From contig QHZB01000082.1 of assembly GCA_003224525.1 (NCBI GenBank), positions 1 through 35,781 on the forward strand: a stretch of DNA of 35,781 nt, in the 5' to 3' direction. Shown here one piece after another: positions 5,824-35,781 of the stretch (the stretch's first letter is position 1; every line of letters begins with the position of its first letter). The notes below the pieces were generated by a model. That model was not told the origin of the DNA, ran no database searches, and saw only the letters and a program-made list of their open reading frames with translations. The position numbers were made by a program, and so were the translations under genes. This DNA comes from Acidobacteriota bacterium (GTDB lineage: Bacteria > Acidobacteriota > Terriglobia > Acidiferrales > UBA7541).

Positions 5824-6891
5824 CTAGTGATTTCCCATATCCGCGGCCCGGTCCAGGTAGTGCGTCTCCCCTGCTTCCACGAGGTGCGCCGCAGCGCGCT
5901 CTGGCGTGAGGTCGCGCTGAGGGGAGCCGAGAAGTTCGTAACCAACCATGAATTTCTGAATCGTGGCGGAGCGCAGGAGAGGCGGAAAGTAGTGGGCGTG
6001 CAGGTGCCATTCTTCGTAGGCCGCGCCGTCGGTGGGCTTCTGATGGAATCCCATGGAATATGGGAAAGCAGTCTCAAACAAATTGTCGTAACGAACGGTT
6101 ATGCGGCGCAGGATGTCGCCCAAGAGGTCCCGCTCCGCGCCGCTGAGTTGATCGATGGAAGCGAGATGGCGCTTGCTTAGCACGAGCGATTCGAATGGCC
6201 AAACGGCCCAGAAGGGCACGACTACGGCAAATGCATCGTTCTGGCAGACGACCCGCTCATTTAGCTCCAACTCCAACTTTAGGTAGTCGCAGAGCAGGCA
6301 AGAATGTTTTTCAGCGCGATATTCCCGGAAAGACGCCAGCTCCCGAGTTGGAATGTTCGGCTGTGATCCATTCGCCCAAATCTGGCAGTGCGGGTGGGGA
6401 TTGCTCGCGCCCATCATCTCGCCGCGATTTTCGAAAATCTGCACATGACCAATCCAGGGAATTTGCCCGAGTGCGGAGTACTGCTCGACCCAGCCATTCA
6501 CGATCCCCCGCAATTCCTGCGGGCTCATTCGGGGAACTGTGAGATCGTGACGCGGAGAAAAACACATCACGCGGCAGATTCCTTGCTCACCGTGTCCCAC
6601 GAGCAAGCCGGCCGTATCAAAATGGAGAGGCGCGATGTCCGGCAGCATCGCGGGGTAATCGTTGTCAAAAACGTAGGTTTGCGAATACCGCGGCGTCTGC
6701 GCTCCGCCCGCGCGCCGATTTCCCGGGCACAAGTAACAGTTGGGATCGAAAGTAACTGCGGGAGGCGTCTGAAGTGTTTCGACCCTCCCCAGCCACGGGC
6801 GCTGGGTCCGATGGGGAGAGACCAGAACCCACTCTCGCAGGAGCGGATTGAAACGCCGGTGTGGAACTCGATTTAGCTCGTCGAAACTCAT
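5824..6891 (-). CDS. galT: Galactose-1-phosphate uridylyltransferase
   Basis: A 355-residue Leloir-pathway enzyme. It exchanges UMP between UDP-glucose and galactose 1-phosphate, giving UDP-galactose and glucose 1-phosphate. The zinc-site CYLCPGN (Cys52, Cys55) and the catalytic NPHPHCQIW motif (His166-Pro-His168) are present. The second HIT-like half contains WHLHAHYFPPLLRS. Length matches E. coli GalT (about 348). The ATG at 6891 is preferred over an upstream TTG at 6897, which adds two residues; neither has a strong ribosome site. It follows galK by 64 bases on the same strand. Confidence 0.95.
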   Translation of the reverse strand: MSFDELNRVPHRRFNPLLREWVLVSPHRTQRPWLGRVETLQTPPAVTFDPNCYLCPGNRRAGGAQTPRYSQTYVFDNDYPAMLPDIAPLHFDTAGLLVGHGEQGICRVMCFSPRHDLTVPRMSPQELRGIVNGWVEQYSALGQIPWIGHVQIFENRGEMMGASNPHPHCQIWANGSQPNIPTRELASFREYRAEKHSCLLCDYLKLELELNERVVCQNDAFAVVVPFWAVWPFESLVLSKRHLASIDQLSGAERDLLGDILRRITVRYDNLFETAFPYSMGFHQKPTDGAAYEEWHLHAHYFPPLLRSATIQKFMVGYELLGSPQRDLTPERAAAHLVEAGETHYLDRAADMGNH

Positions 6892-9214: not shown

Positions 9215-10564
9215 ATGAGTCTCAATGCATTTTTGTCACGACGGGTAGTGACGCCGGACGGAATCAAATCGGCGGCGGTGCTTGCCGAAGACGGACGAAT
9301 CCTCGATATTGTTCCACCGGATCAACTGCCCGCGCAGATTTCCGTGAGGGACTTTGGCGATGCCGTCATTCTACCGGGGCTGGTGGACTCTCACGTCCAC
9401 ATCAACGAACCCGGGCGGACCGAATGGGAAGGATTCCGGACGGCGACCCGCGCGGCCGCCTCTGGTGGCTATACGCTGCTGGTGGACATGCCGCTCAACT
9501 GTCTGCCGGCCACGACGACCGTGGATGCACTCGAAGCAAAACGCAAAGCCGCGACCGGCGAGTGCCGGGTGGACTGGATGGCGTGGGGCGGTGTAGTGAG
9601 CGACAACCAGGAGCACATTGAAAGTTTGGCGGCCGCGGGCGCGCCGGGATTCAAGTGCTTCCTCATTCATCCAGGCATCGACGGGTTCACCATGGTCAAC
9701 GAGCGGGAGCTCCACGCGGCCTTGCCGCATGTCGCGAAGACCGGCTTACCGCTGCTCGTGCACGCGGAACTGCCCGGGCCGGTGGACAGAGCAACGCGCC
9801 GATTGGCGCAGGCGGACTGGAGCAAGTACGCGACGTATCTGGAATCGCGGCCGGATGAAGCGGAGCTTTCCGCCATCCAGCTTATGATTTCCCTGTGCCG
9901 CGAATATCATTTCCGCCTGCACATCGTGCATCTTGCGACGGGCCGAGCACTGGGTATGTTGTGCGCTGCGAAGTCAGAAGGCCTGCCGGTGAGTGTTGAA
10001 ACTTGCCCGCATTATCTGCATCTCTCTTCCGAGAAAATCCCGGACGGCCAGACGCTGTTCAAATGCGCGCCGCCGATCCGCGGCCGGGAGAATTGCGAGA
10101 AACTGTGGCAAGGGCTTCGAGAAGGAGTCATTGATTTGGTGGCTACGGATCATTCTCCTTGCCCGCCCGAGATGAAGCGGCTCGGCGAGCGGAACTTTCG
10201 AACGGCCTGGGGAGGGATTTCCAGCCTCTCGCTGGCGCTGCCGGTGATGTGGACCGAGGCCAGTGGCCGCGGCTTCACGCTTGCGGACATCGCGCGGTGG
10301 ATGGCGGAAGGGCCGGCGCGGCTTGCCGGGTGCGAATCGCACAAAGGCCGCGTTGCCAAGGATTTCGATGCCGACTTTGTGGTGTTCGAGCCGGAAACTG
10401 AATTCACTGCGGCAGAGGAACGTCTTTTCTACCGTCACCGCGTTTCGCCCTATTTGGGAGAACGACTTCGCGGGGTGGTCAAGGCGACCTATCTGCGCGG
10501 AAGCTGCGTATTTGGGGATGGAAACTTTCCGGGAGAGCCGATTGGGCGCGAATTCCGGCGGTAA
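9215..10564 (+). CDS. allB: Allantoinase (cyclic amidohydrolase)
   Basis: A 449-residue amidohydrolase that opens the hydantoin ring of allantoin to allantoate. Metal and catalytic residues are in place: DSHVHINEPGRTEWEG (His60, His62), GFKCFLIHPG with the lysine that is carbamylated (Lys147), His183 in LVHAELPG, His239 in LHIVHLATG, and Asp312 in VATDHSPC. The ATG at 9215 gives the normal N-terminus MSLNAFLSRRVVTPDG; an upstream GTG at 9200 adds only five residues. It is the first gene of the plus-strand purine/ureide cluster and lies 75 bases before the xanthine dehydrogenase genes. No clear ribosome site or promoter is seen. Confidence 0.95.
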   Translation: MSLNAFLSRRVVTPDGIKSAAVLAEDGRILDIVPPDQLPAQISVRDFGDAVILPGLVDSHVHINEPGRTEWEGFRTATRAAASGGYTLLVDMPLNCLPATTTVDALEAKRKAATGECRVDWMAWGGVVSDNQEHIESLAAAGAPGFKCFLIHPGIDGFTMVNERELHAALPHVAKTGLPLLVHAELPGPVDRATRRLAQADWSKYATYLESRPDEAELSAIQLMISLCREYHFRLHIVHLATGRALGMLCAAKSEGLPVSVETCPHYLHLSSEKIPDGQTLFKCAPPIRGRENCEKLWQGLREGVIDLVATDHSPCPPEMKRLGERNFRTAWGGISSLSLALPVMWTEASGRGFTLADIARWMAEGPARLAGCESHKGRVAKDFDADFVVFEPETEFTAAEERLFYRHRVSPYLGERLRGVVKATYLRGSCVFGDGNFPGEPIGREFRR

Positions 10565-10639
10565 CCGGCGCTCGGAAGCCTCAAATAGAGATTTGAAACT
10601 CCTCCCTTTTCATACAGAATACGGCCAGCAAAGAAATTC

Positions 10640-12848
10640 ATGACGGTCCATCATATCGTCGGGGAATCGGTGCCGCGCAAGGAAGGCTGGGACAAAGTCA
10701 CGGGAGCGGCGCGCTACGTCGACGACATGATTCTGCCCGGCATGCTTTACGGTGCAACGGTGCGCAGCAGCGTTGCGCGCGGCAAGATCAGAAAGATTAC
10801 TTTTGATCCGCGCATTGCATGGGGCGAATTTGTCCTCGTAACCGCCAAAGACATTGGTGAATCACGCCGAAGAGCCCATTCTCCTTCTAGCCCATGCTGA
10901 GCGTCACAAGCTTCGAAGAGCGATCGATGCGATTTCCATCGAGTACGAGCCGCTCCCATCAGTGCACTCCATGGAAGAAAGCGAGCGACGATCGACAATC
11001 ATCTGGGGCACGGACAATACCTTTAAGAGCTACCTGGTTGAAAAGGGAGACGCAGACGCTGTTTGGAAAGATGCGGCGCACATCGTCGAGGGCGAGTACT
11101 TCACCGGCGCGCAGGAGCAATTGTACATCGAAAACAACGGAGTCATCGCAACGTTCGACCCCGAGAATGGAGTCACCGTTTGGGGCTCGCTGCAATGCCC
11201 ATACTACGTTCACAAAGCGCTGATGGCGCTGTGCGGCCTTTCCGAAGACAAAGTTCGCGTCGTGCAAATGGAGACCGGAGGCGCGTTCGGTGGAAAGGAA
11301 GAATATCCGTCCATGATCGCTGGTCATGCGGCGCTGCTCGCGATCAAATCCGGCAGACCGGTGAAAATCATCTACGACCGCATGGAGGATATGGCTGCCA
11401 CGACAAAGCGACATCCTTCGCGAACGCGCCATCGCACGGCGGTGAGCAAGGACGGCAAAATTCTTGGGGGCGAAATCGAGTTCGCCATCGATGGCGGGGC
11501 TTACACAACACTGTCGTCGGTGGTTTTATCGCGGGGCACGATTCACGCAGGCGGTCCTTATTACTGGCCGAGTGTGCGCATTCGAACGAAGGCGTTGGCG
11601 ACGAATACGCCGCCGCATGGCGCCTTTCGCGGATTTGGTGCGCCGCAGAGCCTTTTTGCCATGGAGCGGCACATGGATCGCATCGCCCAGGTCGTGGGAA
11701 TTTCTCCCGTCGAAATCCGCCGGCGGAATTTTCTGAAGCCCGGTCAGACGACAACTACGCAACAGGTCATCCGTGAAGAAATCAACTTGAATCATTTGCT
11801 CGACCGCGCGCTGGAACTCTCTGACTATGCCGCGAAGAAGACGCGTTTTGCGGAAGAAAATAAAGACGGAACGCGCAAAAAAGGAATCGGAATCGCCGCC
11901 TTTTTGCATGGCGCGGGATTCACGGGCTCCGGCGAACGCTATCTGAATTCGTTGGTCGGTGTGGAAGCCGGCGCCGACGGTAATGTTCGAGTGTTGGTGT
12001 CCAGCGCGGAATTCGGTCAAGGAACCAATACCGTGCTTTGCCAGATTGCCGCCGAGGCGCTGGGGCTTCCTTATGAGAACGTTTCGATCGCGCAGCCGGA
12101 CACGACCGTGGTGCCGAACAGCGGCCCGACCGTGGCTTCGCGCACGGCGATGATCGTCGGAAAACTGCTTCAGTCGGCGGCTAAGGGAATCAAGGAAACG
12201 CTCACGAAGACCGGATTTCTTGGTAACGACTTCACTCCGGAACAATTTCGCGCCGCGTGCCGGGAATACATCGCGGCGCACGAAACGCTGAAGTCGTATG
12301 CGCGGTATGAAGCGCCGGGCGATGTCTACTGGGACGATGAAAAATATCGCGGCGAGGCCTATGCGGCGTTTGCGTGGGCCGTCTACGTTGCGGAGGTCAC
12401 GGTGGATCTGCCGACTTATGCCGTGACCGTGGACGACTTCGTCGCACTGCAGGAAGTCGGCAAGGTTCTTCATCCGGTGCTCGCCGAAGGACAGATCACT
12501 GGGGGAGTGGCGCAAGCGATCGGCTTCGCGCTCTACGAGAAGGTCGTCTGGCAGGACGGCCGCATGATCAACAATCAGATGACGAATTACATCATGCCGA
12601 CTTCGGTGGACGTCCCGCCGATCCGCGTATTTTTTGAGGAGCTTGGCAACGTCCACGGCGCGCACGGCGCCAAGGGCATCGGAGAACTCGCCATGGATGG
12701 TCCTGCGCCGGCGATCGTAAACGCCGTGGAAGATGCGATCGGTGTTCGCTTCCATTCGATTCCGCTGCTGCCGGAAGATCTTTTTGAGGCTCTGCGGCCC
12801 GCGCCTCTTGAGCAAGATGCTCCTTCTTTGACGCGAGGGACAGCATGA
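10640..12848 (+). pseudogene. xdhA: Xanthine dehydrogenase molybdopterin-binding subunit, broken by an N-terminal frameshifting deletion
   Basis: Two frames together encode one large subunit (E. coli naming). The first (ATG 10640) gives VPRKEGWDKVTGAARYVDDM and runs to WGEFVLVTAKDI. The second picks up at about 10855 with VNHAEEPILLLAHAERH and continues to a normal C-terminus. Family members have about 20 residues between these segments (a stretch like PG-N-VALI-NDQP-LADG). The loss is therefore about 60 bases, and the frame change requires a length of 2 modulo 3. The rest is well preserved: METGGAFGGKEEYPSMIAGH, RGFGAPQS, QGTNTVLCQIAAEALG and GAKGIGELAMDGPAPA with the active-site Glu. The second frame has a GTG at 10854 but would lack the N-terminal domain. 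It overlaps the Fe-S subunit gene by four bases. An assembly error is possible. Confidence 0.8.
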
Positions 12849-26988: not shown

Positions 26989-29955
26989 TTGCACACACTC
27001 ACCCCATTACCGTTGAGCTCGCACGCAAAACCAGTGGACTCGTTTTCTCAAGCGTCGGAACTGGAGCAGGAACTCAAGCGAACGCTGAATGGTGAAGTGC
27101 AGTTCGATCGAGGGAGCCGGGCGCTGTACGCCACGGACGGATCGAATTACCGGCAGATTCCTATTGGCCTGGTCATGCCCCGCGATGATGCGGATGTGAT
27201 CGCAGCGGTAGCGGCATGCAGGAAGTATGGTGCTCCAGTTCTGGCGCGAGGGGCCGGCACAAGTTTGGCCGGTCAATGCTGCAATGTCGCAGTGGTAGTG
27301 GATTTCACGAAGTATATGAACCGTATTCTTGAGCTCGACAGCGACGCAAGATTCGCGCGCGTTCAGCCGGGAGTCGTTCTGGACTCCCTACGAAACCGCG
27401 CAGAAATGCATCAGTTGACTTTTGCGCCGGACCCTTCAACGCACAATCGGTGCACGATCGGTGGGATGATTGGCAATAATTCTTGCGGAACGCATTCGCT
27501 GCTTGGAGGGAAAACGGTCGACAACGTCGAAGAGCTGCGAATTCTGCTTTACGACGGTTCGCAGATGACGGTGGGCGCCACGAGCGGGGCTGAGTTCGCT
27601 CAGATCATTTCTCAGGGTGACCGCCGTAGCGAGATTTACCGCAAGTTGTACCGGATCCAGGAGCTCTACGCCAGCTTGATCCGCGAGCGCTTTCCGCAAA
27701 TTCCGCGGCGAGTCTCCGGCTACAACCTGGATGAACTGCTGCCTGAAAGAGGATTCAACCTCGCACGCGCACTCGTCGGAACAGAAGGTACTTGTGCAAT
27801 CGCACTCGAAGCTAAGTTGAAATTGATTCACAGTCCGCAGCACCGCGCCCTTGTTGGATTGGGGTATCGAGATGCGTTCTTCGCAGCCGATCATGTTCCG
27901 GAGATATTGCGGCTCCGTCCGATCGGGCTTGAAGGTTTTGAGGGAAGTATTGTCGACGGGCTCCAGAGAAAGGGAGCGCAAAACCTTGATCTTCTTCCCG
28001 CGGGTCGAGGGTTTTTGCTGGTGGAATTTGGAGCCGATGATCCGAACGAGGCTCAGCAGCTCGCCGTAGAGCTCGTCGATCATCTGAAACAAGTTAGCGG
28101 GGCACCCAACGCACGGCTGTATTCAAAGAGCGAAGCGCGGGCGGTATGGCAGATCCGCGAGGCCGGGCCACGTGCGGCTGCGTTTGCTCCCGGAGCACCG
28201 GCGGAATGGGAAGGCTGGGATGACGCAGCAGTCGCTCCGGAAAAACTGGGAGGCTACCTCAGAGACGTTCGCAAACTGATGAACGAATATCACTACCGAG
28301 GCGCATTCTATGGGCATTTTGGACATGGCTGCGTCCACATGCGTGTCAGCTTCGATCTCGAAAGTGAAAACGGGATCCGGAAATACGCAGAGTTCATCGA
28401 CCGTGCAGCCGATCTCGTAGTGGGCTATGGCGGGTCGCTCTCGGGCGAGCATGGTGATGGGCAGTCGCGGGCGGCGTTGCTTCCGAAAATGTTTGGATCC
28501 GATCTGATGAAAGCCTTCGGCGAATTCAAAACGGCCTGGGATCCAGAAAATAAGCTAAACCCGCACAAAATTGTTGGTGCTTACTTGCCTACGGAGAACT
28601 TGCGGCTGGGCGCAGACTATAAGCCACTGGAACCGGAGACTCATTTCAAATTCCCCGATGACGGCGGTTCATTTGCGAAGGCCGCACTGCGATGCATCGG
28701 GCTCGGAGCTTGCCGGAAGAGTGACGGCGGCACAATGTGCCCGAGTTATATGGTGACGCTCGAAGAAGAACACAGCACGCGGGGGCGTGCTCACATGCTT
28801 TTTGAACTTCTCCAAGGCGAGGTGCTACGCGACGGCTGGCGAGACGAACACGTTAAGGACGCACTGGAACTGTGTCTTTCGTGTAAGGCCTGCAAGTCGG
28901 AATGCCCGGCGAACGTCGATATTGCAACCTACAAGGCGGAATTTCTCTCGCACTATTACGAAAAGAAGTGGCGCCCGCTGAAAGCGTACGCCTTTGGCCT
29001 GATCGAACGATGGGCGAAGCTTGGGTCGCGAATGCCCAGAATTGCTAACTTTCTTAGCCAGGCGCCGGGACCCCGTCACCTGCTGCAAAGGTTCTTAGGG
29101 CTGGCGTCGCAGCGGCAATTGCCACGTTTGGCGCCAGTCACCTTTTGGCAATGGGCGCAAGTGCATCGGAATTCCATTTTCCGAGATGAGGACAGATTGA
29201 ATCCAGCGCCGTTGCTTAAGGAGCGACAAGTCGTTCTGTGGGTGGACACGTTCAACAACTACTTCCATCCGGAAACGTGCCGGGCCGCTCTGGAAGTGTT
29301 GGAGGAGGCGGAATTCACAGTGACGTGTTCCCGAAGACCTCTGTGCTGCGGGCGACCGCTTTATGACTTCGGCATGCTTGAGAGAGCCAAAAACTGCTTA
29401 AGCCAGATCTTGAGTGCTCTCGGTCCGCAGATTGACGCAGGGCTGCCAATTGTCGTCTTGGAGCCGAGCTGTGCTTCTGTGTTTCGCGATGAGCTGCACA
29501 ATCTATTTCCCACCGACGAGCGCGCCACCAGGCTCCGAAACCAAACATTCCTTCTCAGTGAGTTTCTGCAAAATCACGCTCCGGACTATCTTCCTCCTTC
29601 CCTCTCACGAAAAGTTATTCTTCATGGCCACTGCCACCATAAGGCGCTCATGAAAATCAATGATGAGGAGTCTTTGCTCCGGAAGATGGGCGTGGAACTG
29701 CAATCCTTGGACTCCGGATGCTGCGGGATGGCCGGGCCGTTCGGGTTTCAGAAAGATAAATTCGAGATATCGCAGGCCATAGGAGAGCGAGTTCTGCTGC
29801 CGGCAGTGCGACGCGCGGCGTCAGACACGCTGATTGTCGCGGATGGCTTCAGCTGTCGCGAACAAATACTGCAGGGCACCGGCAGGTCTGCGATGCACCT
29901 GGCCGAGGTCTTGAAGATGGCGTTGGATCGCCAAAATTCTTCCGAGGGCGGCTAA
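26989..29955 (+). CDS. FAD-linked oxidase fused to Fe-S and CCG domains (glycolate/D-lactate dehydrogenase type)
   Basis: A 988-residue fusion. Residues about 40-270 form a PCMH FAD-binding domain (VMPRDDADVIAAVAACRKYG, ARGAGTSLAGQC, IGGMIGNNSCGTHSLLGGKT). Residues about 270-530 form the FAD-oxidase C-terminal domain (HFGHGCVHMR, GSLSGEHGDGQSR). A 4Fe-4S ferredoxin part follows (CIGLGACRK..MCPSY near 568-585 and CLSCKACKSECP near 629-640). The two CCG-type repeats are at RPLCCGRP (about 784) and LDSGCCGMAGPFG (about 908). Such proteins oxidise 2-hydroxyacids and pass electrons to the respiratory chain. The start is probably TTG 26989 with AGGAAG upstream, as no early ATG exists. The substrate is unknown. 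Confidence 0.85.
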   Translation: MHTLTPLPLSSHAKPVDSFSQASELEQELKRTLNGEVQFDRGSRALYATDGSNYRQIPIGLVMPRDDADVIAAVAACRKYGAPVLARGAGTSLAGQCCNVAVVVDFTKYMNRILELDSDARFARVQPGVVLDSLRNRAEMHQLTFAPDPSTHNRCTIGGMIGNNSCGTHSLLGGKTVDNVEELRILLYDGSQMTVGATSGAEFAQIISQGDRRSEIYRKLYRIQELYASLIRERFPQIPRRVSGYNLDELLPERGFNLARALVGTEGTCAIALEAKLKLIHSPQHRALVGLGYRDAFFAADHVPEILRLRPIGLEGFEGSIVDGLQRKGAQNLDLLPAGRGFLLVEFGADDPNEAQQLAVELVDHLKQVSGAPNARLYSKSEARAVWQIREAGPRAAAFAPGAPAEWEGWDDAAVAPEKLGGYLRDVRKLMNEYHYRGAFYGHFGHGCVHMRVSFDLESENGIRKYAEFIDRAADLVVGYGGSLSGEHGDGQSRAALLPKMFGSDLMKAFGEFKTAWDPENKLNPHKIVGAYLPTENLRLGADYKPLEPETHFKFPDDGGSFAKAALRCIGLGACRKSDGGTMCPSYMVTLEEEHSTRGRAHMLFELLQGEVLRDGWRDEHVKDALELCLSCKACKSECPANVDIATYKAEFLSHYYEKKWRPLKAYAFGLIERWAKLGSRMPRIANFLSQAPGPRHLLQRFLGLASQRQLPRLAPVTFWQWAQVHRNSIFRDEDRLNPAPLLKERQVVLWVDTFNNYFHPETCRAALEVLEEAEFTVTCSRRPLCCGRPLYDFGMLERAKNCLSQILSALGPQIDAGLPIVVLEPSCASVFRDELHNLFPTDERATRLRNQTFLLSEFLQNHAPDYLPPSLSRKVILHGHCHHKALMKINDEESLLRKMGVELQSLDSGCCGMAGPFGFQKDKFEISQAIGERVLLPAVRRAASDTLIVADGFSCREQILQGTGRSAMHLAEVLKMALDRQNSSEGG

Positions 29956-30002: not shown

Positions 30003-31008
30003 CTACTTTTTCCCGGGCGATGGCACCGATCGTTGCAATTGGCCGAAATCCAGACCGGGCAAGAAGGGAGTTTTCTCAATTCTTAGGGCATCTAAGCTGA
30101 ACGGATTCAGTCCCAATGCTCTGAGGATGCTAGGGCGATTTGTCACGTTGTACAGGAAACTTGATTTCTTGACGGCGGAACCTAGGATGGTAAATGAGAA
30201 GCGGTACACCCCGATCCGTGTTCGCGTTGCCGCCATGCTCGGCGATGAACGTGCTGCCGCTATCCACGTAGGTTTGGCCTGGAGTCGGCTGAATAATGAT
30301 ATCTGGCACACGGGGGTCATTCTTGGGGTCATTGAATAGGAGCTTCAATGATTCACCGGAGTAAATTTCCTGAATGCCCGCCTCTTCCTGGATTTTTCGC
30401 AGCGCATTGACAACATCAGCGGTTCGGTCCTGATCCGACAGCCACAGTAAGGCGACACTTCCGTCCTGCTCCAAACCGGCCAACAACCTTTCGTGGACGG
30501 AAGTCACGGTTTTCGGAATGAGTTCCGGGTTGGCATGCCTGACTTCGCAGGATCAATCGGGGAGTCACCATGCTTAGCAGTGATGATAACGAGCGTTGAG
30601 TCAAGCAACTGAGGCGGGTGCCGACAAGCTGCGGTCATAGGAGTTCTCGAAAATCACTCCCGTTACATTGGGAGATCCTCCCGTCACCATGGAAAGCAGG
30701 CCGGGCCATGAATTGGAGGGGAATGACGTCGAAGCATTGCTGTAAGTGACGCCGTGCAGGCTCAATTTCGCAAGAGCCGACTCGGGCCGATACTTAATCA
30801 GACTGGCGAGATCCAGGCTGTGCATGCCATCCAGCCTAAGGAGTAGGACGTGGCGTATCGGATTTTTCCGCGGCCTCGAGCCGTTCTCATCAGAAAGTTG
30901 TGCCATTGCTTCGATTGGCCTCAATGACGATATCATGCATGCGAGAACTGCGATCAAGAGGGCTGCCACCGCGAATTCAGCGTTCCTATTATAATTCTCT
31001 GTTCTCAA
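30003..31008 (-). pseudogene. Alkaline phosphatase family (phosphodiesterase) gene with a large internal deletion
   Basis: The original start is TTG 31008 with AGGAG upstream, opening a signal peptide (EFAVAALLIAVLACMISSL). The N-terminal catalytic segment HVLLLRLDGMHSLDLASLIK and YSNASTSFPSNSWPGLLSMV is intact up to SYDRSLSAPA. It then jumps directly to LLDSTLVIITAKHGDSPIDP (near 30610). Family members carry roughly 200 residues in between. A frameshift near 30540 leads into SVALLWLSDQ, GIQEIYSGESLKLLFNDP and PDIIIQP, and further shifts near 30130-30150 lead to ILRALGLNPFSLDALRIEKT and FLPGL. Metal-site parts are missing, so it is not functional. Confidence 0.85.
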
Positions 31009-31458
31009 CTGTGTGCTCCTCGATCCGGTAATATACTTCCAATCCAACGGTGTCTTCCAATTCCTTGCGAACTTTCCAGAAAACAGCCTGGTCCATTCCC
31101 GTACCAATGCCTCTGTTTTCAGGTCGAATCTCGTTGCCGATCGTTTTTGAGTTAAACAGAAATTAATTTTGTTTTAAGTCCGCATCGCAACCAATGCTTT
31201 AAGCTTTCTCGTGCTGTCCTTTAGCAGAGGTTGAGTCGCCCTGTCGCGGCCTCTCGCTTGCCTGACTGATTTGGCGGGGGAAATCTCGGTCCGCGCCGCA
31301 GTACTTTGAAGGTAACCGGCTAGCTTTGGCGTGAAATCATCGTGGAATGACACCGCAAGTGGCCAGATAGTTCGGTGCACGGACTAGGTCGGAGCAGAAT
31401 GGAGCTGCCGCTGGCAATTTAGTTTCACGTAAGAAGCATTCCATCTTAGGGAGAGAAA
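31009..31458. other. Divergent intergenic region between phosphatase pseudogene and beta-propeller gene
   Basis: This 450-base stretch contains the 11-bp-phased TTAA element described separately. I see no other gene, tRNA or strong terminator. Short open frames here have no recognisable protein character. Confidence 0.5.
31152..31178. promoter_or_regulatory. Phased TTAA box, copy 1 (PmrA/QseB-like site)
   Basis: TTAA occurs at 31152-31155, 31163-31166 and 31174-31177, spaced exactly 11 and 11 bases. The stretch from 31153 to 31171 (TAAACAGAAATTAATTTTG) is identical to copy 2 at 34645-34663. OmpR-family regulators of the PmrA/QseB group bind TTAA half-sites with this 11-bp phase. It lies between the divergent phosphatase pseudogene and the beta-propeller gene. 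Confidence 0.6.
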
Positions 31459-32469
31459 ATGAAGAAACGGTTCTTAGTCCTTGTCGCGACTCTCATGCTA
31501 TTCGGAGTCCAAGCCCGCTGCCAAGGAGCTGCACCACTCAAGCTGATCCAAACTTTTGAGCTGCCCGTGGAGGTTAAAGGGAACTTCGACCATTTTGGAA
31601 TCGACCTGAAAGGCGGGCGGCTGTTTGCGACTCCGGAAGGCTACCACGCTGTAGTCGTGTTTGATTTGAAGACAGGCGAACTGGTTCACAAAATAGATGG
31701 AATTGGCAAGCCGCACGCTGTGCTCTATCGGGAGGATCTGAACCGCATTTACGTTACCGACGGAGATGCGGGAGACTTGAAGATCTTCGACGGCACAACG
31801 TACGGTCTCGTGTCCAGCGTGAAACTCTTAGAGGATGCGGATTCCATTGGCTACGATCCGGTCACGAAGTACCTCTATATCGACAACGGCGGCGGGGACG
31901 TTCATCAGACGTACTCGATGCTAAGCGTCATTGATACGACCGCAGGAGAGAAATTGGCCGACCTCAAGATTGAAGGAGAAACTCTCGAGGCCATGGCGTT
32001 GGAGAAGTCCACATCGAAAATGTATGTAAATAACAGAGCTAGGAACCAGGTTTCTGTTGTGGACCGGGAGAAGCGCGAACTCGTAGCGAGTTGGCCCGTA
32101 ACGCAATGCAAGCCCAACGTGGCCATGGCCCTCGACGAAGCCAACCATCGCTTGTTTGTCGCTTGCCGCAGTGGCGTGATTTCAGTGCTGGATACCAAAA
32201 CGGGCAAGGAAGTTACGTCTTTCCCCATCACCAAGGGCGTTGACGATATTACCTACGATCCGGCCAGCAAGCGTGTCTATGCCGCCTGTGATGGTGCGAT
32301 TGATATCTATGAACAATCCGGCCATGACAGTTACAGATTGCTTGGGAACGTCTCTACAGGCCCCATGGGGAGGACAGCGCGCCTAGTGCCGGAATTGAAG
32401 CGCTACTTTGTGGCCGTTCCGCAGTACGGCACTACAAGCGCTAGGGTCCTCGTATTTGATGTTCTGTAA
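31459..32469 (+). CDS. Secreted YVTN/YncE-type beta-propeller protein
   Basis: A 336-residue protein with a signal peptide (KKRFLVLVATLMLFGVQARC). It has repeated blades of the YVTN type, such as FDLKTGELVHKIDGIGKPHA, LNRIYVTDGDAGDLKIFD, SKMYVNNRARNQVSVVD, HRLFVACRSGVISVLDTKTG and SKRVYAACDGAIDIYE. A Cys at the signal end (ARCQG) is not a convincing lipobox. The ATG at 31459 has a GGGAGAG ribosome site. The function is unknown. In this cluster it sits between a phosphatase relic and a two-component system, and may be an exported binding or scaffold protein. Confidence 0.85.
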   Translation: MKKRFLVLVATLMLFGVQARCQGAAPLKLIQTFELPVEVKGNFDHFGIDLKGGRLFATPEGYHAVVVFDLKTGELVHKIDGIGKPHAVLYREDLNRIYVTDGDAGDLKIFDGTTYGLVSSVKLLEDADSIGYDPVTKYLYIDNGGGDVHQTYSMLSVIDTTAGEKLADLKIEGETLEAMALEKSTSKMYVNNRARNQVSVVDREKRELVASWPVTQCKPNVAMALDEANHRLFVACRSGVISVLDTKTGKEVTSFPITKGVDDITYDPASKRVYAACDGAIDIYEQSGHDSYRLLGNVSTGPMGRTARLVPELKRYFVAVPQYGTTSARVLVFDVL

Positions 32470-32567
32470 TGAGGCGCGTGCCTCACAATCGAAACCGGAT
32501 TCTGCGCTGAGATTGAGTCAACGCAGGCTACCATGCACCTCGTTATGAGAGAATATTGAGCGGGGCT

Positions 32568-33245
32568 ATGCGGATCCTCTTAGTCGAAGACGAACGGAAG
32601 GTCGCCAGCTTTATCGCGCGTGCCTTGAAGGAAAACACCTACGCAGTAGATGTGGCGGAAACGGGTCAGAAGGCACTCGAATTAGGTGCCGACGTCACAT
32701 ACGACGCCATTCTTCTCGATGTTCGTTTGCCCGACCTCAGCGGGATCGAAGTCTGCCGCGAGTTTCGCCAGCGAGGAATAGAAGCGCCTGTCCTCATGCT
32801 CACGGCGCGAGGTTTGATCGAGCAGCGAGTCGAAGGCTTGGATGCAGGCGCCGACGACTACCTCACGAAACCCTTCGTCTTGGCAGAACTACTTGCACGT
32901 GTGAGGGCACTCGTTCGGCGGGGCTTCCATGGCAGCAACGCAAAACTCAGCTACGCGGATTTAATGCTAGACCGTCATCGCCGCCGCGCTACGCGGGACA
33001 AAGAGACAATTCCTCTGACGTCCAGGGAATTCGCACTTCTCGAAGTGCTCTTGCTTCGCGCTCCTGAGCTTATTACCCGGAGTGAAATTGTGGAGCATGT
33101 TTGGGATTGCCATTTTGACAGCGAAACAAATCTCGTTGAGGTTTACATCAATCGGCTCCGCCAGAAGATTGATCAAGACCGCTCCGTGAAGCTGATCCAT
33201 ACCATCCGTGGAGTGGGATACCGCTTGGGGACACCGGGGTCGTGA
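32568..33245 (+). CDS. OmpR-family response regulator
   Basis: A 225-residue two-domain regulator. The receiver domain begins MRILLVEDERKVASF with the phosphoacceptor Asp51 in AILLDVRLPD, Thr79 in MLTARG and Lys101 in DDYLTKPF. The C-terminal winged helix (about 128-222) contains LTSREFALLEVLLLRAPELI and VEVYINRLRQKID, ending in the typical IHTIRGVGYRLG. The ATG at 32568 is preferred over a TTG at 32556. It overlaps the kinase gene (GTGA). The phased TTAA boxes on either side of this gene pair are candidate targets. Confidence 0.93.
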   Translation: MRILLVEDERKVASFIARALKENTYAVDVAETGQKALELGADVTYDAILLDVRLPDLSGIEVCREFRQRGIEAPVLMLTARGLIEQRVEGLDAGADDYLTKPFVLAELLARVRALVRRGFHGSNAKLSYADLMLDRHRRRATRDKETIPLTSREFALLEVLLLRAPELITRSEIVEHVWDCHFDSETNLVEVYINRLRQKIDQDRSVKLIHTIRGVGYRLGTPGS

Positions 33246-34669
33246 AAATCAGAACACTCCGTCTCCGGATGATGTTGCTTTTCTGCACCGTCGTCGGTGT
33301 ACTTCTGGCGGGGTCGTACCTGGCGTTTTGGGGCCTGTTGGCGCATGCGGTCCATGCGCAACTCAATCGTCAGCTGCTTGAGACCGCGCGCCCCATCATT
33401 TCTGATATGGTCTCCGAGCCCGAAGCGAAAGACGTAAATCGGCTGGACCTTCCAGGCGAGTTTTTTGAGCTCCTGGACCAAAATGGCCACGTCCTCCAGC
33501 AGTCCAAGAATCTCGCGGCACCAATGAAGCTAAATGGGCTAAACCTTGCCGATTCCCAGCCGACTTTCGGGATAGCCGCTCTGGAGAATGGAGAAACCGT
33601 GCGCGCGGTGCTCATTCCTTTTCGGCAAGGAAATCAGGCGCTCATTTTTGCCGTGGCCATCCCTACTTTTGGGACCAACCGAGTGCTCGACAGCTTTGGA
33701 GGCGTGGCCTTGCTGCTTTTCCCTCTAAGCCTCGTACTGACTGCCGGAATATCGGCACTATACGTCGGGAGAAGCCTTGCGCCCATCAAGGAGTTGACCA
33801 AGCACGCTGCCCTGATGGCCAAGCGTGTCACGAACCGACAAGGATTCTGGACACCTCTGCCGGTGTGTTCCCCTCATGATGAGCTTGGGCGATTGGCGCA
33901 AACGTTTAATCATCTATTGAAGAGCGTTGATTCGGCCGTTCTCCAGTTACGCCAATTTGTGACAGACGCCTCGCACGAGTTGCGCACTCCACTCGCAGTT
34001 CTTCACGGCGAGACAGAGCTGCTGCTCTCTAAACCACGAAGCCCGGAGGAATATCGCCAGACTCTTTGTGTATTCGACGATGAGTTCAAGAAACTGACGC
34101 GGATCGTGGAAGGTCTGTTCACTCTCTCGATGGCCGACGCCGGGCAACTGCATTTGATCCGGGAACCGCTTTACATCAACGAGGTTCTCGAAGAAGCTTG
34201 CTCCCTAGCCGCCTCGCGCGCACGCACGAAGAATATCTCCATCGCACGGGATTTGAGCGAGGAAGTGGCCTGGACTGGAGATGAGGCCTTCCTGCATCAA
34301 CTGTTTTTGATTTTTCTCGATAATGCGATCAAGTATTCTCCCGATGGTACGAGCATCCGCGTGACATTGGGGGTTCGAGACCGTGCGATTCAAGCGCGTT
34401 TTCAAGATCAAGGCGTCGGGATCTCACCGGAGCACTTACCGTTCATCTTTGATCGGTTCTACCGGGCCGCTCCTTTGAATAGCGGTGACACCCAGAGCGG
34501 AGGACTCGGTCTGGCTATTGCGCAGGCAATCGCTATCGCGCAAGGTGGTACCATTGAGTGTGCGAGCACAGTGGGAGTCGGTTCAACCTTCACCGTGATT
34601 TTGCCCATTACTCATCCACGGGAAGCCGTTCCCGAAGTCACAGCTAAACAGAAATTAATTTTGCGTTAA
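33242..34669 (+). CDS. Sensor histidine kinase (EnvZ/CusS-like)
   Basis: A 475-residue membrane kinase with GTG start at 33242 overlapping the regulator stop. Transmembrane helices are at about 10-33 and 152-175, enclosing a periplasmic sensor of about 120 residues. HAMP follows (176-230), then the H-box FVTDASHELRTPLAVLHGE (phospho-His245), N-box FLDNAIKYSPDG (Asn361), G1 DQGVGIS (389-395), F-box FDRFYRA and G2 GGLGLAIAQAI (420-430). It is the cognate partner of the upstream regulator. Its last nine codons contain copy 2 of the phased TTAA box. Confidence 0.93.
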   Translation: MKIRTLRLRMMLLFCTVVGVLLAGSYLAFWGLLAHAVHAQLNRQLLETARPIISDMVSEPEAKDVNRLDLPGEFFELLDQNGHVLQQSKNLAAPMKLNGLNLADSQPTFGIAALENGETVRAVLIPFRQGNQALIFAVAIPTFGTNRVLDSFGGVALLLFPLSLVLTAGISALYVGRSLAPIKELTKHAALMAKRVTNRQGFWTPLPVCSPHDELGRLAQTFNHLLKSVDSAVLQLRQFVTDASHELRTPLAVLHGETELLLSKPRSPEEYRQTLCVFDDEFKKLTRIVEGLFTLSMADAGQLHLIREPLYINEVLEEACSLAASRARTKNISIARDLSEEVAWTGDEAFLHQLFLIFLDNAIKYSPDGTSIRVTLGVRDRAIQARFQDQGVGISPEHLPFIFDRFYRAAPLNSGDTQSGGLGLAIAQAIAIAQGGTIECASTVGVGSTFTVILPITHPREAVPEVTAKQKLILR

Positions 34670-34670
34670 G
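34644..34670. promoter_or_regulatory. Phased TTAA box, copy 2, embedded in the end of the histidine kinase gene
   Basis: Half-sites CTAA (34644-34647), TTAA (34655-34658) and TTAA (34666-34669) are spaced 11 and 11 bases. The last overlaps the kinase stop codon. It shares 24 of 26 bases with copy 1 at 31153-31178. It lies 53-79 bases upstream of the TonB receptor start, a good position for activation by the adjacent response regulator. Confidence 0.65.
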
Positions 34671-34722
34671 GCAACATCCTGGACTCTGCACTAGGCTCAA
34701 CCCCAACGGTGGAGGTGATTCA

Positions 34723-35781
34723 GTGTTCTCTCGAAGAATTTCTACAATGTATTTGTATTGCCGCATCGCAGCAATTCTCTTGATGTGTGGGATTTATCTT
34801 TCAGTTCCAGCCGATGCCCAAGTGGCAGGAGGAACGCTCTCCGGCACCATCACGGACCCTTCCGACAAATTTGTACCTCAAGCTCAAATTTCGATCACCA
34901 ATGTGGCGACCGGAATTACAACGACGGCCACGACGAACTCGGACGGCTATTATACGGCCGCGAACTTGCTCCCAGGAGAATATCAAGTCACCGTTTCTGC
35001 AAAGGGATTCGCGACAGAGGTAAGAAAAGGCATCTCCCTTACCGTGGGAGCGCGGCAGATCGTTGATCTGACTCTACAAGTAGGGTCGGCAGCGAAAACG
35101 GTCGTTGAGGTGACCACGGAAGCTCCCGCCGTGCAACTCGCCAGTTCTGATATCAGTGCAGTTGTGAATGCGACCACTGTCCGTGAACTGCCTCTCAACG
35201 GTCGGAGTTGGACGGACCTGGCAGCCCTGCAGCCCGGAGTCGATACAATCCAGACACAACCGACGTTCGCAGTGGGCGCGGATCGTGGCAATCGCGGTTT
35301 CGGGCAGCAGTTGACGATTTCCGGCGCGCGGCCACAGCAGAATAACTATCGCCTCGACGGTGTCAGTCTCAACGACTATGCCAACGGGGCCCCTGGTAGC
35401 GTCCTTGGCGGAAACCTGGGTGTGGATGCCATTCAGGAATTCTCAGTTCTGACCAGCAATTACTCGGCGGAGTACGGCAAGACATCCGGAGGAGTGGTCA
35501 ACGCAATCACCCGGTCGGGCACCAATACTTTTCATGGAAGCGTCTACGAATTTCTCCGCAACAGCGCACTGGACGCGCGGAACTTCTTTGAAGACCCCAC
35601 CGCTCCGAAGGCACCATTCAAACGGAATCAGTTCGGAGGCGCGGTTGGCGGACCGATCATCAAGAACCGGACATTCTTCTTCGCCGACTTCGAAGCGATC
35701 CGGCAGTCCAAGGGCATCGCCGTAGTTGACACAGTGCCTTCCAATGCGGCACGGGCAGGGCTGATCTGCTCGAACCCCGCA
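34723..35781 (+). CDS. TonB-dependent receptor with carboxypeptidase-regulatory-like N-terminal domain, C-terminus cut off by window edge
   Basis: The first 353 codons of a large outer-membrane receptor. GTG 34723 has an excellent GGAGGTGAT ribosome site and opens a signal peptide (IAAILLMCGIYLSVPADAQ). Residues about 38-118 form a carboxypeptidase-regulatory-like beta-sandwich (GTLSGTITDPSDKFVPQAQI, NSDGYYTAANLLPGEYQVTV). The plug domain follows (VRELPLNGRSWTDLAALQPG, NNYRLDGVSLND, EFSVLTSNYSAEYGKTSGGV, VNAITRSGTNTFHGSVYEFL). This Oar-like architecture is very common in Acidobacteriota. The ligand is unknown. Confidence 0.92.
   Translation, partial: MFSRRISTMYLYCRIAAILLMCGIYLSVPADAQVAGGTLSGTITDPSDKFVPQAQISITNVATGITTTATTNSDGYYTAANLLPGEYQVTVSAKGFATEVRKGISLTVGARQIVDLTLQVGSAAKTVVEVTTEAPAVQLASSDISAVVNATTVRELPLNGRSWTDLAALQPGVDTIQTQPTFAVGADRGNRGFGQQLTISGARPQQNNYRLDGVSLNDYANGAPGSVLGGNLGVDAIQEFSVLTSNYSAEYGKTSGGVVNAITRSGTNTFHGSVYEFLRNSALDARNFFEDPTAPKAPFKRNQFGGAVGGPIIKNRTFFFADFEAIRQSKGIAVVDTVPSNAARAGLICSNPA

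Follow-up and report, generated by a model that had tools for sequence, protein, structure and literature searches.

The closest described counterparts of the element treated here are the operators of PmrA and AgrR. In its account of the PmrA box, PMC3973317 describes TTAA-type half-sites that lie five base pairs (bp) apart, with an 11-bp period; they are CTTAAT and CCTAAG, in a head-to-tail arrangement when bound, for Klebsiella, and CTTAAG and XTTAAT for Salmonella. AgrR of Cupriavidus, as described in PMC7380067, has a box composed of the inverted repeat ATKACANNNNTGTMAT, to which further in-phase half-sites are added at some operators, and is reported there to be autoregulated and probably a type-II activator. 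Here we describe a 26-bp box of three TTAA-type half-sites that occurs twice in a 35,781-nucleotide (nt) stretch of acidobacterial DNA (contig QHZB01000082.1; hereafter the window), once ahead of genes for a beta-propeller protein, a response regulator and a histidine kinase, and once across the end of the kinase gene, ahead of a gene for a TonB-dependent receptor.

On sequence grounds, we consider that this box is very probably bound by the response regulator whose gene lies at 32556-33245, presumably in its phosphorylated form. Copy 1 would drive a propeller-regulator-kinase operon under positive autoregulation, and copy 2, lying in the 3′ end of the kinase gene, would supply a separate, likewise controlled promoter for the TonB receptor. 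The layout of the sites, with 11-bp spacing and a -10 element at a fixed distance, fits OmpR/PhoB half-sites arranged in helical phase.

The regulator carries a REC domain (PF00072) and a Trans_reg_C winged helix (PF00486), both above Pfam cut-offs. Its best NCBIfam model is cztR_silR_copR, at 245.1 bits against a cut-off of 279.2, and the kinase comes nearest to cztS_silS_copS, also with a score under that model's cut-off. This resemblance to the CzcR/CopR/SilR heavy-metal systems, which stays below the family cut-offs, includes RND efflux genes standing behind the kinase-tail box in other genera; the nearest solved structure for the DNA-binding domain is PcoR. An earlier note on this DNA had proposed a PmrA/QseB-type regulator. 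That family assignment does not stand, because the PmrA model (196 bits, cut-off 330) and the QseB model (172 bits, cut-off 345) both fall below their thresholds and the nearest relatives are CzcR/CopR, but the half-site layout is indeed PmrA-like. The likeness to the PmrA box as given in PMC3973317, namely TTAA-type half-sites separated by 5 bp and an OmpR/PhoB-type regulator, is one of layout only. Unlike the box in that description, the present one has three half-sites, its conserved core is longer (AGAAATTAAT in this genus), and the genes behind it serve uptake or efflux. Judged by eye, neither copy contains an inverted repeat of the kind that PMC7380067 gives for AgrR; unlike AgrR as depicted there, this system has TTAA half-sites at 11 bp and, in this genus, a TonB receptor behind the box.

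The two copies and their conservation in relatives

Both copies lie where the earlier note had placed them, and the run of 19 consecutive identical bases and the exact 11-bp spacing of the half-sites in each copy are likewise as described there. The overall identity is 23 of 26 bases (24 of 27 if the next G is counted), not the 24 of 26 that had been claimed. The spacing pattern YTAA-N7-TTAA-N7-TTAA matches three times in the window, twice at copy 1 (once per strand) and once at copy 2 (forward strand), and had no match in 100 dinucleotide-preserving shuffles. Across the full 6.47-Mb genome it is found at one place outside the window, on contig C188, and the pattern read backwards, used as a control, has one match. 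A consensus search allowing up to three mismatches returns only three places in the genome, the same as those found by spacing.

Copy 2 comprises the final 26 bases of the kinase open reading frame (33242-34669), TAA included, so copy 1 might be nothing more than a duplicated kinase 3′ end that was moved by rearrangement and has no regulatory role. The identity of the two copies favors such an origin, as does an ungapped match that can be extended to 37 nt at 84%. This extension, however, covers only 2 bases before the box and approximately 9 behind it, and does not reach the rest of the kinase. Moreover, the box stands ahead of the propeller gene in 12 further loci of the genus, and also ahead of genes that have no kinase nearby. 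Given these conserved non-coding copies in relatives, which refute the alternative that the earlier note itself had named, we assign a mere duplication almost no probability, and conclude from the comparative evidence that the box is a conserved promoter element.

The scan of related acidobacterial genomes that had been proposed was run, and it recovers the box at every level from genus to class. A stricter form of the pattern matched 13 of the 89 family genomes (reversed control, 0). Thirteen stretches surround these stricter-pattern sites, the window locus apart, and 10 of them contain orthologues of both regulator and kinase; the others have a propeller and a TonB receptor (L027), a propeller (L029), or, in the window's own genome on C188, only weak propeller similarity (L024). 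When up to two mismatches were allowed, 15 of the 36 genus genomes gave 57 matches in total (reversed control, 2); when up to one was allowed, 21 of the order's 95 genomes gave 48 (reversed control, none); at the class level 33 of 399 genomes matched, with a single control match. Close relatives of the kinase in named records (73-93% identity) come from Acidobacteria group 2 metagenome-assembled genomes and Candidatus Acidiferrum typicum (L060-L063), and the other 73 of the 77 kinase loci listed are remote kinases with at most 38% identity in the best segment.

Box and kinase also occur together. When a family genome is counted as kinase-bearing at a kinase match of E <= 1e-60 (28 of 89 genomes), the box at up to one mismatch is present in 21 of 28 kinase-bearing and 0 of 61 kinase-less genomes (Fisher p 9e-15, a value inflated by the shared locus and by common descent). 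Within the genus the corresponding counts are 12/12 and 0/24, and an orthologous kinase is present in all 21 order genomes that have the box at this stringency. At the class level, where the kinase threshold was E <= 1e-90 and up to four candidates per genome were scored, the box is found in 29 of 47 kinase-bearing genomes and 4 of 352 others. Sites on a contig other than that of the kinase occur in 8 of 28 kinase-bearing versus 0 of 61 kinase-less family genomes. Finally, 23 of 30 family kinase places, which were fetched regardless of any box, have a box behind the kinase; two of the 30 end inside the kinase (L139, L154), and one match (G070, 39% identity) was left out. Four of the 23 boxes are weaker (L140, L144, L149 and L152): their matrix scores are 11.4 to 18.5, against a maximum of 15.9 for the reversed control, and of these four only L149 and L152 are also matched by the pattern at one mismatch.

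Promoter layout and the case for the regulator

A -10-like TANNNT lies 22 or 23 nt behind the box at 50 of the 57 genus matches, a count from which no match was dropped and which includes sites ahead of MmgE/PrpD-family genes. Among the seven misses, one has TANNNT at 21 nt, one at both 21 and 24 nt, and four are two-mismatch sites without the element (G023, G025 and two in G035). Nineteen further class and family sites show it at the same distance in 13 cases. In a chosen set of 60 sites, which unlike the genus count is a selected one, it is present at 58, and all 13 TonB-side genus sites of that set have it at exactly 22 nt. The -35 region consists of the box edge and non-consensus bases. 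Among OmpR/PhoB regulators, this is the layout expected of a class-II activator. The spacing suggests a class-II activator site, which would mean activation rather than repression.

An A+T-rich box directly upstream of the -35 position could also be an UP-element, or some other general promoter feature, that is read by RNA polymerase itself and is not an operator of this regulator. We regard this as very unlikely. A general feature should not be confined, at up to three mismatches, to three places in 6.47 Mb or be missing at up to one mismatch from all 61 kinase-less family genomes. Individual bases are kept as well, not just A+T content: at 13 propeller-side sites the conservation averages 1.69 bits per position.

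Several observations nevertheless weigh against assigning the box to the regulator at this locus. The co-occurrence of box and kinase is partly trivial, because the two share one locus, and the relatives are not independent. The off-locus count is weakened by the fact that contigs are fragments and that 2 of the 8 genomes (G047, G048) lack the -10 spacing. Four family kinase loci with a readable 3′ end have no box (L138, L141, L145, L148), and outside the order, where 19 of 20 kinase-bearing genomes were scored (G223, with a kinase match that is cut, was left out), 8 of the 19 have none near the kinase end. Four box-bearing genomes of the class have no kinase match (G196, G229, G318, G381), and the sites in G229 and G318 are without the -10. 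At up to two mismatches, one match each occurs in the kinase-less genus genomes G003, G023 and G025. The G003 match, which precedes a PrpD-type gene and has the -10 at the usual distance, looks genuine, in a genome that is only 63% complete; those in G023 and G025, without the -10, look like chance. The seventh genus miss is a strong box without TANNNT (G031:C212:10954), and the six misses among the 19 class and family sites include both strong kinase-tail boxes outside the order, in G351 and G192. In addition, the direct or inverted orientation of each half-site is ambiguous, because TTAA is palindromic.

Some of these observations would be accommodated if another transcription factor, either a paralogous OmpR-type protein or a member of a different family, bound the box and merely co-occurred with the cluster. 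Such a factor might account for the 4 of 33 box-bearing class genomes without a kinase match, as well as for the box variants CTAAAnAA..TTTTCA found ahead of PrpD genes in some genomes. Yet across families the box stays beside the regulator-kinase pair even though the genes downstream differ, being TonB receptor genes in some and RND efflux genes in others. We therefore hold a different binding protein to be improbable, if less so than an UP-element, and continue to favor the regulator encoded between the two copies.

The earlier note had predicted one regulon of regulator, kinase, TonB receptor, propeller and a decayed phosphatase, with copy 1 serving a divergent phosphatase/propeller region. 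The first four members probably belong to it, as does the propeller side of copy 1, toward which alone, as read by eye, a -10 stands at the usual distance. The phosphatase side is not supported. No TANNNT was found by eye at 22 or 23 nt from copy 1 on the minus strand, and the minus-strand gene for this Phosphodiest-family phosphatase is broken, with tblastn pieces in two frames at 30018-30951 when an intact relative (563 amino acids, from L019 in G008) is used as the query.

The kinase stop codon within the box

As the earlier note had observed, copy 2 covers the last kinase codons and the stop, ahead of the TonB receptor. This arrangement recurs at all 23 box-bearing kinase loci of the family, where the kinase stop TAA falls inside a half-site of the box. 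In the genus (12 loci) the stop occupies the third half-site; in genus g6 (5 loci) it occupies the second, and in g2, g4 and g11 together (6 loci) the first. Mapped onto a 26-row kinase tree, in which four rows are labeled 'none', these assignments require five changes. In other genera the box DNA is read in a different frame or is placed beyond the kinase stop.

Codon usage at the tail is consistent with selection on the DNA. Among 11 kinases, 223 alignment columns have an invariant residue, and only six of these have an invariant codon; the box accounts for two of the six, AAA and TTA. Leucine is invariant in 39 columns, and only at the TTA of the box is its codon invariant as well; in the kinase bodies, 32 of the 718 leucine codons are TTA. 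At columns 467 and 474 of the kinase alignment, the third base is fixed though the residue varies. In this genus, as judged from these codons, the sequence of the tail is set by the putative operator rather than by the protein, in agreement with the earlier suggestion that the operator may shape the last kinase codons.

The overlap is not general. Outside the order, a candidate box close to the end of the kinase is present in 11 of the 19 scored genomes, with scores of 3.8 to 44.1; the null maximum in 350 windows is 10.1, so that the score of the weakest candidate (G148, 3.8) does not exceed chance. A rule that the kinase stop always lies in the box is true for the box-bearing family loci and fails in these genomes, where it holds in 3 of 11 (at position 24 in G351, and at position 13 in G306 and G148), the other kinases stopping ahead of the box. 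For this reason, the overlap of predicted operator and stop codon is best described as opportunistic, not a rule.

Both window copies contain a stop in every frame, the other strand included, as follows from a spacing of 11 bp, which is not divisible by 3. We lean, by a modest margin, toward a broader interpretation of this arrangement. Three TAA-bearing half-sites, with an 11-bp period that is coprime to the 3-nt codon, would constitute an all-frame stop on both strands that can end any upstream gene. In the family, the kinase stop would have shifted between half-sites while the operator stayed in place and wrote the C-terminus of the protein, and the operator would have been kept while the downstream gene switched between RND efflux and TonB uptake. 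A point against the all-frame interpretation is that boxes ending in TTCA, in genus g6 and others, have lost the third stop, so the g6 boxes lack one of the three stop frames. A literature search for an operator lying over a stop codon returned nothing beyond PMC7763554, which concerns an overlap of the copRS genes and not an operator over a stop codon.

Genes in the window and behind the box in relatives

Domain searches bear out the neighborhood of propeller, OmpR-type regulator, histidine kinase and TonB receptor that had been reported for the window (Table 1). The real start of the regulator may be the ATG at 32568.

Table 1. Box copies, predicted -10 elements and adjacent genes in the window
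Feature	Position	Strand	Remarks
Box copy 1	31152..31177	+	TTAA half-sites at 31152, 31163 and 31174; from sequence and pattern search
Predicted -10-like element TAAGCT	31200..31205	+	22 nt behind box copy 1
YncE-like beta-propeller protein	31459..32469	+	First gene behind copy 1
OmpR/PhoB-type response regulator, CzcR/CopR-like	32556..33245	+	REC and Trans_reg_C
Histidine kinase	33242..34669	+	HAMP, HisKA, HATPase_c; last codons and stop in box copy 2
Box copy 2	34644..34669	+	CTAA/TTAA/TTAA at 34644, 34655 and 34666; third half-site contains the kinase stop
Predicted -10-like element TAGGCT	34692..34697	+	22 nt behind box copy 2
TonB-dependent (Oar-like) receptor	34723..35781	+	CarboxypepD_reg/Plug; cut by contig end

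In the genus, the propeller gene (with an amidohydrolase at some loci; L017 was scanned) is followed by the regulator and the kinase, and the TonB receptor lies behind the kinase. L017 (G006:C145) also holds a second copy of the cluster (9382-11283), in which the kinase is broken and the start of the TonB receptor is frame-shifted; both boxes of this locus (6001 and 10781) are nevertheless intact. The box is further found in the genus ahead of MmgE/PrpD-family genes (11 related first genes by blastp, one of them domain-scanned), ahead of a group of four aminotransferase genes, an MFS transporter gene and further propeller genes. In other genera, efflux genes lie downstream of the box that follows the kinase (OEP-MFP-RND in L143, OEP in L147), and relatives of TolC and RND take this place in another family (L209-L211). 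The order propeller-regulator-kinase-box-TonB-PrpD is seen again in a further family, uninterrupted in L206 and divided between two contigs in L207/L208. One predicted operator thus appears to stand ahead of uptake genes in some lineages and of efflux genes in others.

Variants of the box accompany several of these genes. In the window's own genome, CTAAAnAAGAATTAATACTGTTTTCA variants lie ahead of MmgE/PrpD-family genes at 6615 and 9497 (minus strand) of L171 on C188, and similar variants precede such genes in other genomes; they possibly form a subclass of the regulon. Variants of the form ATAAATGnAAATTAATCTG lie ahead of related aminotransferase genes at G017:C524:12430 (L178) and G018:C366:126293 (L179), and in L178 the BhcA-like aminotransferase gene is followed by a gene for a YdiJ-like FAD/FeS dehydrogenase. 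Because G017 has a box ahead of aminotransferase and YdiJ-like genes, the YdiJ-like gene of the window (26989-29955) was searched as well; no box was found ahead of it with up to three mismatches allowed, and no ATAAATGnAAATTAATCTG-type box either. Four weak, two-mismatch boxes lie within 4 kb near TonB, propeller and MFS genes in L185 (G031:C380, 5208-9157).

Our literature search found no paper on such a two-component regulon in Acidobacteria. The box would provide a defined promoter code for an acidobacterial two-component system, covering TonB receptors, propellers and PrpD-like enzymes, together with RND efflux pumps in relatives. The overlap of operator and stop codon is unusual and instructive. 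It would be a case in which selection at the DNA level overrides selection at the protein level at the end of a gene, and simple arithmetic may explain why an 11-bp-phased TTAA operator is safe in that position.

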